Notes under the pieces: generated by a model
The model's input: only the letters and a program-made list of their open reading frames with translations
What the model was told of the DNA's origin: nothing
Databases searched by the model: none
Origin: Gammaproteobacteria bacterium
Lineage (GTDB): Bacteria; Pseudomonadota; Gammaproteobacteria; Ga0077536
DNA: 35,414 nucleotides
Assembly: GCA_019747795.1 (NCBI GenBank)
Contig: JAIEQK010000159.1
Location: forward strand, 1 to 35,414
Direction of reading: 5' to 3'
Shown: in pieces, positions 3,274 through 5,802 of the stretch
Numbering within the stretch: position 1 is the first letter of the stretch
Layout of the letters: the number at the start of each line of letters is the position of its first letter
Position numbers and translations under genes: made by a program

Positions 3274-3350
3274 GAGTGACAGGCCGAGGCGCGGCAGCTT
3301 TCGCGTCGCGCCTCGGCCGCCCATCAACCTGCAGCACGGAGAATCCCATC

Positions 3351-4151
3351 ATGCAGCGTTCATCCCTGACACATCTCGCGGCGGCGCTTGCCCTGCTCGC
3401 GACCGGCGCCGCGCGCGCCAGCGTCGAACTGCCGGGCGGCGACAGCTTTCTCAATGGCACGCTGGCCTTCACCTACGGCGCAAATGGCTCGGCGCGCATC
3501 GACCCAGCGCTCTACGTCGGCGGCAACACCGCCTTTCCGACCGGCCTGGACACGGCGTTCCTGCCGGTGGACAGCGTCACCGCCGCCACGGGCCTCGGCT
3601 ACGGGTACAGCGTGGGCGGCTTCGGCAGCGGCGCGGCGCGCGTGACCTACCGCATCGTCAACCAGACCGGCACCGGCTGGCGCAACCTGCGCTTCATCGC
3701 CGACGTGTCGGGCGATCTGTTCGACGACAAACAGGAAATCGTCACGCTGAAGGGCGCGGCCGGCGCCCCCGGCGAAGCCGCGCGCTTCGGCATCGACGAC
3801 GCGGTCAGCGGGAACCTTTTCCTGAACGATCTGATCGTCGAAGGACAGCTGGACGACACCGACCACTGCGCGGGCCCCTGCGCCGCCGAGGGCGCCCTGC
3901 AATGGGACCTGGCGGCGCTGGAGAACGGTGAGATCTGGGAGATCTCGGCGATGCTGTCCGACGATGGGAGCGCGGTCTCGCAGCGCCTGCTCGAGTTCGC
4001 GCTGACCGATGGGGCAGGCGCCCCGCTCGAACCCGGGCAGGTGCTGAGTTTCTCGGGTACGGCGGCCGTCACGGCGGTGCCGTTACCGGGGGCGGCGCTG
4101 TTGTTCGGGGCTGGGCTACTGGGACTGGTGCCGCGCAGACGGTGGCGGTGA
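3351..4151 (+). CDS. VPLPA/PEP-CTERM-type sorted extracellular protein
   Basis: This is a 266-residue secreted protein. The signal peptide core LAAALALLATGAARA ends near residue 22, and the mature part is strand-rich and rich in Gly, Asp and Thr. The C-terminus is a sorting tail: VPLPGAALLFGAGLLGLVPRRR, meaning a Pro motif, a hydrophobic helix and an Arg cluster at the extreme end. That is the tripartite layout recognised by exosortase-type transpeptidases (the VPLPA variant). The start follows CGGAGAA at 3337-3343. The protein should be exported, processed at the tail and released or anchored with exopolysaccharide. The enzyme that would process it is not in this window. It closes the three-gene operon and converges on another CTERM gene across a shared terminator. 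Confidence 0.85.
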   Translation: MQRSSLTHLAAALALLATGAARASVELPGGDSFLNGTLAFTYGANGSARIDPALYVGGNTAFPTGLDTAFLPVDSVTAATGLGYGYSVGGFGSGAARVTYRIVNQTGTGWRNLRFIADVSGDLFDDKQEIVTLKGAAGAPGEAARFGIDDAVSGNLFLNDLIVEGQLDDTDHCAGPCAAEGALQWDLAALENGEIWEISAMLSDDGSAVSQRLLEFALTDGAGAPLEPGQVLSFSGTAAVTAVPLPGAALLFGAGLLGLVPRRRWR

Positions 4152-4869: not shown

Positions 4870-4948
4870 GTGCGTGTCCTGACTGATTGTTGTTGTTGAT
4901 GTCCTGATGCCGCGGGTGAATCCCTCCCTCCACGCTGCGCGAAGTCTT

Positions 4949-4966
4949 TAGCAAGTCTGTTGCCAA
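4949..4966 (-). promoter_or_regulatory. Sigma-54 (RpoN) -24/-12 promoter of the PEP-CTERM gene
   Basis: Read on the minus strand the site is TTGGCAACAGACTTGCTA. It matches the RpoN consensus TGGCAC-N5-TTGCW with one mismatch (A for C). The GG and GC dinucleotides are exactly 10 bases apart. Predicted transcription start is near 4939, giving a leader of about 70 bases before the ATG at 4869. PEP-CTERM systems are known to be linked to RpoN and the PrsK/PrsR two-component pair, which fits. Confidence 0.75.
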
Positions 4967-5038
4967 TCGTGTCGCTTCGCTAACAGGCGTTATTCCTCAG
5001 CGAGTTATGCATCTACGCACCCGCGCAGGGTCCGCCGG

Positions 5039-5100
5039 CTGTAAAGAATCCCAGAAAACCCACCCTATCGGGGGTGCCTGCATTCTGAAAATCTTTACAG
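5039..5100. promoter_or_regulatory. Widely spaced CTGTAAAGA inverted repeat, likely activator site
   Basis: CTGTAAAGA at 5039-5047 is mirrored by TCTTTACAG at 5092-5100, with 44 bases between them. Inside lies a small CACCC...GGGTG repeat. The element is about 85-150 bases upstream of the -12 box of the sigma-54 promoter, the usual place for an enhancer-binding protein such as a PrsR-type response regulator. It is AT-richer than its surroundings. The binding protein is inferred, not shown. Confidence 0.6.
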
Positions 5101-5277
5101 GTTCGCGTCCCGATCCGCCGAGGACTTGGCCGCGCCCATGGACGCGAGCCGTGCGCCACCCGGCAGCACCGGTAGGCGAGGTTGCCGCCAAGTAAAGCGT
5201 CCTATTCACTTCGAAGGTGGCTGTGCCCCTCGAAGGGAGACGGCTAGACTCGGGCCGCAAAAAAAAGGACTTCGATC

Positions 5278-5802
5278 ATGCGCCACATGCTGTCCGCGCT
5301 CCTTGTTTCCACCGCGCTACTCACCGGCTGCGCCGGCACCGCGCCCAAGGCCACCTTCATCGCACCGCCCGTCAAGGACACGCGCGTCCGTAACGGCGAC
5401 ACCGTGAAGGTCGCCGTCGTGGCCGGCGCCGGCGTCGAGATGCTGGAAAGCGAGCGTCTGCACCTGGGCGAGGTCATCTCGCAAAAGCTCGGGCAGTTCC
5501 AGGCCATGAACCCCGCGACGGGGACACCGGTGGCCTACGACCTGGAGGTGACGGTCTCGCGCTTCGAGAAGGGCAACGCCTTCGCCCGCGCGATGCTCGC
5601 AGGCCTGGGGCAGATCCACATCGACGCCCGCGTCCGCCTGCTGAGTGCGGCGGACCAGTCCCAGGTGAGCGCCTTCGACTTGAAGAAGACCTTCGCCTGG
5701 GGCGGCATGTATGGCGCGACCACCGGCATCGAGGACGTGGAACCGGCGTTCGCCGAAGGGGTTGCTTCCGCCTTGACCGGGCTGGAAGAAGCGAAGAAGT
5801 AG
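5278..5802 (+). CDS. DUF4410-like outer-membrane or periplasmic lipoprotein
   Basis: This is a 174-residue lipoprotein. The signal sequence ends in a lipobox LLTGC (Cys18). The mature part has an alternating strand/helix layout: VKVAVVAGAGV, a helix containing ERLHLGEVISQKLGQF, YDLEVTVSRFEKGNAFARAML, and IHIDARVRLL. This matches the general form of DUF4410 lipoproteins. AAGGA precedes the start by 8 bases. A second ATG at 5287 is possible, but the first keeps the normal n-region. It appears monocistronic. The role is unknown; such proteins are often induced with envelope stress or surface polysaccharide functions. The family name is by resemblance. Confidence 0.75.
   Translation: MRHMLSALLVSTALLTGCAGTAPKATFIAPPVKDTRVRNGDTVKVAVVAGAGVEMLESERLHLGEVISQKLGQFQAMNPATGTPVAYDLEVTVSRFEKGNAFARAMLAGLGQIHIDARVRLLSAADQSQVSAFDLKKTFAWGGMYGATTGIEDVEPAFAEGVASALTGLEEAKK

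Follow-up and report, generated by a model that had tools for sequence, protein, structure and literature searches.

The closest described counterpart of the locus analysed here is the promoter type that Haft et al. predicted in 2006 in front of PEP-CTERM genes (PMC1569441). It consists of a 17-nt motif 1 that ends in TTTACA and is sometimes repeated, a spacer (mean 62.8, SD 10.6, range 32-92), and a sigma-54 element, motif 2, between whose end and the start codon there are 71 nt on average (SD 38.5). Of 167 proteobacterial PEP-CTERM genes, 99 had the motif in front of them, as had a few other genes, and its occurrence follows the profile of PrsK, PrsR and PrsT (PMC1569441). In Aquincola, the start of an RpoN-dependent PEP-CTERM gene has been mapped by primer extension, and a predicted enhancer was noted (PMC9850573); this is the one mapped promoter of the PrsR regulatory system that we found in the literature.

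The window, by which we mean the whole stretch of 35,414 nt that was analysed (contig C289 within a draft genome of 5.94 Mb), contains a further example (Table 1), and we put at about 0.86 the probability that it is a PrsK/PrsR-controlled sigma-54 promoter of a single PEP-CTERM gene. The site displays the ending of motif 1, a spacer within 32-92, the -24 GG and -12 GC and a PEP-CTERM gene, and the genome encodes PrsR, PrsK and sigma-54. Because the window fits the published numbers (PMC1569441), the architecture that a sequence-only reading of this DNA had proposed is of a known kind, and it is a sound new example whose binding site had been misdrawn.

Table 1. Features of the predicted promoter region and of the related RNA loci
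Feature	Position	Strand	Remarks
Sigma-54 -24/-12 element (motif 2), TTGGCAACAGACTTGCT	4950..4966	-	GG-N10-GC; 5/5 scored consensus bases
Predicted +1	4939	-	12 nt downstream of -12 C; placed from sigma-54 geometry
Putative proximal PrsR box (motif 1), TTCTGGGATTCTTTACA	5040..5056	-	centre about -109; 74 nt before TGGC
Putative distal PrsR box, opposite orientation, TTCTGAAAATCTTTACA	5083..5099	+	centre about -152; 43 bp from proximal box
Spacer between boxes	5057..5082	.	26 long in the window, one more in the orthologue
PEP-CTERM protein gene, 213 aa	4228..4869	-	signal-peptide-like start; C-terminus PEPSVPALLGLGLLAAAGARRRRR
Start codon ATG of the 213-aa PEP-CTERM ORF	4869	-	
Divergent lipoprotein-like gene	5278-5802	+	across the intergenic stretch from the PEP-CTERM gene
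Structured RNA, ~177 nt (own genome)	C204:12251-12427	-	terminator; upstream of metZ-like gene
Strong box/sigma-54 site of the RNA locus	C204:12439-12521		
RNA loci in six genomes, three genera	L081, L192; L086, L096, L191, L193, L196, L197		

On the minus strand, TGGCAACAGACTTGCT at 4950-4965 forms a good sigma-54 element with the GG-N10-GC spacing, as had been claimed, and the sigma-54 geometry leads to the same predicted start, 4939, as the sequence-only reading. The PEP-CTERM gene would then have a leader of 70 nt, the distance from motif 2 to the ATG being 80 nt. TTTACA is exact in both boxes of the window, at 5045-5040 (minus strand) in the proximal one and at 5094-5099, in the opposite orientation, in the distal one; the comparison with motif 1 (Haft et al., 2006) covers this ending. 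The proximal box is separated by 73 nt from the 17-nt motif 2 and by 74 nt from its TGGC. The left halves of the two boxes, TTCTGG and TTCTGA, are of a rarer TTC type.

The assignment of the downstream gene is based on the TIGR02595 model, which matched the 213-aa ORF with 22.3 bits in a single-protein search (cut-off 16) and 26.4 bits in the genome scan, and on Pfam PF07589 (21.8 bits, cut-off 20.7). The intergenic stretch upstream of the gene extends from 4870 to 5277. A convergent neighbour (3276-4151, plus strand) likewise has a CTERM-like tail of the VPLPGA type at its end; the TIGR02595 matches of the genome scan do not include this protein, and no promoter site was found before its gene with the site patterns used.

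The sequence-only reading had invoked the known tie of RpoN and PrsK/PrsR to PEP-CTERM genes and had asked, as a test, that prsR and rpoN be present in this genome. Both are, together with prsK: one protein exceeds the curated PrsR cut-off (693 bits versus 502.6), PrsK reaches 673 bits (cut-off 300), and RpoN is present as a single copy (508 bits, cut-off 277). The genes prsK and epsB2, the latter encoding an XrtA/PEP-CTERM glycosyltransferase, adjoin prsR directly upstream. Downstream of prsK-prsR lies a TolC / LssB-type ABC / HlyD type I secretion set (L077:5805-10570, plus strand). Another sigma-54 activator of the NtrC family might bind the boxes instead of PrsR, in view of 12 further proteins that match the PrsR model at 239-366 bits. 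We consider this improbable, since these matches remain below the cut-off and are taken as other sigma-54 activators, the single protein that passes it is encoded beside prsK and epsB2, and the motif agrees with PrsR in its published phylogenetic profile (PMC1569441). Because of the 12 other matches, PrsR is assigned as the binding protein by association only.

The proposed enhancer was a 9-base inverted repeat, and its arms, CTGTAAAGA at 5039-5047 and TCTTTACAG at 5092-5100, are present as described, with 44 bases between them and 62 in all. The window contains 106 exact 9-bp inverted repeats with loops of up to 60 (overlapping ones counted separately), the pair in question being the sole one of the intergenic stretch 4870-5277. 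The inverted repeat alone is not beyond chance; the composite of box and sigma-54 site is more than chance. TTTACA-N58-84-TGGC-N8-TGC occurs five times in the 5.94-Mb genome, versus none for the reversed pattern. The starts of the 26 PEP-CTERM hits, with their surroundings, make up 16.5 kb (0.28% of the genome), and three of the five sites fall there (binomial P about 2e-7). The remaining two are an RNA locus, described below, and a site inside an open frame of 627 codons. It should be noted that the composite with exact TTTACA accounts for only 3 of the 26 PEP-CTERM hits of this genome and is missing from 23; one mismatch in TTTACA and a looser sigma-54 site added one more hit (C304), with weak combinations, the reversed control giving none. 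The stricter CTTTACA-N50-80-TGGCA-N6-TTGC retrieved two sites in the genome, namely the window and the RNA locus, and the sigma-54 pattern by itself, TGGCA-N6-TTGCW, gave 18 sites versus 7 for its reverse, of which only that of the window precedes a PEP-CTERM hit.

In the three genomes of the genus, this relaxed composite matched 18 sites, versus none when reversed, and 13 of these were read as genuine, as judged by the box, the sigma-54 site, open frames and the downstream gene. Among those kept, L081, L086, L096 and L097 have open frames of more than 100 codons on both strands across the site, and L091 has one of 106 codons on the other strand. Nine of the 13 stand before a PEP-CTERM gene (eight called by ORF, and L091 by reading a short ORF seen in part), three before the RNA, and one is cut by the contig end. 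The family search gave 26 sites in 12 of 36 genomes and none for the reversed pattern; 21 sites precede PEP-CTERM-like ORFs, called by their C-terminal pattern, three belong to the RNA locus, one is cut by a contig end and one was not assigned. The order-level sample consists of the same 36 genomes. At the class level, there were 52 sites in 28 of 369 genomes, again with none reversed. For 28 loci read among the 49 sites outside the family, a PEP-CTERM-like gene was present at 14 (13 by pattern, one by eye) and absent at the other 14, so that at this level the pattern also picks up other targets or false matches. Very short PEP-CTERM ORFs were seen behind a full PrsR-type promoter in L148 (60 aa, at +91 from the sigma-54 site) and in L091, with little beyond a signal peptide and the PEP-CTERM tail. 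In L167 and L189, from two genomes of one genus, a box/sigma-54 promoter precedes a similar 117-aa ORF, not of the PEP-CTERM type, that begins MK[ED]SL[QH]IDFTEWAELAT.... The predicted concentration of the motif at PEP-CTERM genes was therefore found for its relaxed form, in the own genome, the genus and the family. The exact pair is not enriched: CTGTAAAGA and TCTTTACAG at 40-50 apart occur at one place in the genome, the window itself.

The genus sites also delimit the box, and only these are free of conditioning on GTCA, which was built into the left halves of the family and class searches. Nine of the 13 carry GTC at a fixed place in the left half (GTCA in 8 of 13), giving TGTCAA-N5-TTTACA, which forms an imperfect 17-bp dyad similar to NtrC dyads. 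In the other four, including the window and its orthologue, the left half is of the TTC type and lies one or two bases further out. This left-half subtype was seen in the boxes of the window and in L082, L088 and L090. According to the 13-site consensus, therefore, each CTGTAAAGA is one half of a separate box of about 17 bp. The two inverted copies with 44 bases between them, which had been put forward as the binding site, are thus to be redrawn: instead of a single 62-bp site there are two putative boxes, and each arm is the conserved 3' part of its own box. In the window, these boxes are opposed, and their centres lie 43 bp apart, which corresponds to about four turns.

The distal copy could be idle, the inverted repeat being a chance match beside a one-box promoter. 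Repeats of this length are common, as the 106 in the window (overlaps counted) indicate, and 35 of 59 sites lack a second box at the threshold used. Against these points, the orthologue in G019 (59% protein identity) keeps both boxes, 44 bp apart versus 43 in the window, along with a sigma-54 site, TGGCCCCGAACTTGC. Furthermore, a second box within 150 bp was present at 24 of the 59 sites, some of which are orthologues of one another, versus 1.2 expected at the 2% threshold applied. At these 24, none of 100 shuffles, which keep base composition only, was as good; for the window, the distal box was equalled by 0 of 100 shuffles over the 150 bp that lie upstream of the proximal box. Of the 24 second boxes, 14 are direct and 10 inverted. 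Three of the inverted ones, all counted among the 24, belong to RNA loci; the second box stands at 91 bp there and seems to lie partly within the end of the gene upstream, so that its conservation may be coding. The box-to-box distances at the 24 sites appear unphased by eye. A scan of named genomes for inverted pairs gave 37 matches, with a PEP-CTERM-like ORF at most 400 nt downstream in four (the G019 orthologue, a Nitrospirales bin, Alteromonas and Methylobacter) and none in 33. The strict inverted pair is rare and no general rule, because 33 of the 37 matches lack such a gene, yet its presence before PEP-CTERM-like genes in Alteromonas, Methylobacter and the Nitrospirales bin, together with the conservation of both arms, leaves an idle distal copy unlikely.

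Since the distal box points towards the lipoprotein-like gene, the paired arms could also serve that gene, or both genes. This appears very improbable: on the plus strand, 5101-5277 contains no usable sigma-54 site (three GG-N10-GC occurrences, each with 0-1 of the five consensus bases), and the orthologous locus retains both boxes even though the place of the divergent gene is taken there by a 330-codon open frame on the same strand.

The distance between box and promoter follows a marked rhythm. Among the 75 distinct sites of the family and class searches, the box-to-TGGC gaps were 48-49 (3 sites), 51-53 (8), 61-66 (41) and 71-76 (23), so that 72 of the 75 fall into three clusters a helical turn apart, the outliers being 48, 48 and 49. 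None of the 75 sites had a gap of 54-60 or 67-70, where 26.6 would be expected under a uniform distribution, these troughs having been named after seeing the data. The best period was 11.3 bp with R 0.758 (0.728 at 10.5), and none of 2000 uniform sets reached R 0.758. With one site per genus (28 genera), the median R over 300 draws was 0.753 and the lowest 0.658, versus a null maximum of 0.619. All 75 sites were kept in this count, including probable false ones (gaps 48, 48). The gaps of the window (74, in the 71-76 cluster) and of its orthologue (75) are both in phase. The simplest reading of these sequence distances is that the activator must face the promoter from one side of the helix. Section 7 of PMC1569441 does not treat helical phasing of PEP-CTERM enhancers, and we found nothing else on it in the literature. 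From the published spacing (mean 62.8, SD 10.6), the phasing rule and the box consensus would make a sharp design rule that can be put to the test.

The same promoter type is also found before a structured RNA. At the C204 site and its counterparts in G019 and G020, conserved sequence lies downstream instead of a PEP-CTERM gene, with a terminator where the contig reaches. A model built from these three sequences found a fourth copy in another genus (G016, E 0.0016, 36 genomes), and the four-sequence model R2, run on 48 genomes, found copies in G017 (E 1.6e-23) and in G035, from a third genus (E 1.5e-9). R2 gave 29 matches in all, 6 strong (E 1.5e-9 or better) and 23 weak (E 0.0018 to 0.097). 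All weak matches were dropped, 13 of them unread; the 10 with loci (L198-L207) have no TTTACA in the 140 nt upstream and no sigma-54 site at -24 to -26, L207 having a poor GG-N10-GC at -21, and several of these 10 look like terminators or tRNAs. The promoter was outside the RNA model, and in G016, G017 and G035 TGGCARCGATMTTGC stands at -24 and TTTACA at -92/-93, with a gap of 62-63. The downstream gene encodes a Cys/Met-metabolism PLP enzyme (metZ-like; by Pfam in G000, G019 and G016, by eye in G020, G017 and G035), and the upstream gene an AraC-type regulator with a DJ-1-like part (G000, G020 and G016; by eye in G019).

Folding z-scores were -5.4 (G020), -5.1 (G000) and -4.7 (G016), with 0 of 200 shuffles as good in each case. 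In the six-sequence alignment, 89.5% of cells pair, and two-sided changes were found in 26 of 51 base pairs (shuffled mean 13.1, 0 of 500 as good; slid versions 3-7). These pairing and covariation counts lean towards structure, because the model served to fit the alignment and was itself built from four of the six sequences. No Rfam family reached its gathering threshold on the loci of G000, G020 and G016; the best matches over the RNA below that threshold were ncS54 (29.2 bits, gathering 43) and anti-hemB (25.2 bits, gathering 49.5). Taken together, we think it likely that PrsK/PrsR and sigma-54 also drive this conserved RNA, which is about 177 nt long and carries a terminator of its own, and that the activator can act from one fixed face of the helix only. 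A free small RNA is favoured over a terminated metZ leader, the less likely form, because the terminator stands before the gene. In the literature, of which broader listings were covered by title and for the top matches only, we found no small RNA tied to PEP-CTERM and sigma-54.

At the promoter in the window, we propose that PrsR, an NtrC-like activator phosphorylated upon a presumed signal, would bind the two 17-bp boxes at about -109 and -152, oligomerise cooperatively across both and contact the sigma-54 polymerase parked at -24/-12. ATP hydrolysis would then open the promoter, so that export of the surface protein is switched on together with exopolysaccharide. The proximal box would need a fixed helix face relative to the promoter, and the inverted distal box probably helps the activator to assemble.

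With the promoter in the window, the regulatory system predicted in 2006 gains a conserved example with two boxes. What gives the analysis its value is the phasing rule, together with the conserved pair of opposed boxes and the structured RNA reached via the same motif. The RNA would be a new sort of target for PrsR. If our reading is right, the RNA extends the exosortase/exopolysaccharide regulon by a post-transcriptional arm, which possibly ties the regulon to methionine/sulfur metabolism, and it offers a direct way into roles of PrsK/PrsR beyond the making of PEP-CTERM proteins.

Some parallels exist in better-known sigma-54 systems. At the enterobacterial glnAp2 promoter, NtrC binds paired 17-bp imperfect dyads located roughly 110 and 140-150 bp upstream, on the same helix face; the activator and the half-site differ from those proposed here, and the centres are about 32 bp apart, versus 43 in the window. 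The CrcZ-type small RNAs of Pseudomonas are sigma-54-dependent and controlled by the NtrC-family activator CbrB. They resemble the RNA described here in having a sigma-54 promoter under an activator of this family, and differ from it in the activator and the neighbourhood. The pepA promoter of Aquincola tertiaricarbonis RN12 is likewise an RpoN-dependent PEP-CTERM promoter, with a mapped start and a predicted enhancer, but it belongs to another gene and species, and the part of the paper concerning it describes neither the number nor the phase of boxes (PMC9850573). Section 7 of Haft et al. (PMC1569441) mentions the repetition of motif 1, without orientation or helical phasing. With the sites of that 2006 study, the window shares the 17-nt box ending in TTTACA, a spacer of about 60-75 nt, the sigma-54 element, the PEP-CTERM gene and PrsR/PrsK/RpoN, whereas it differs from them in having two opposed boxes with a left half of the TTC type.
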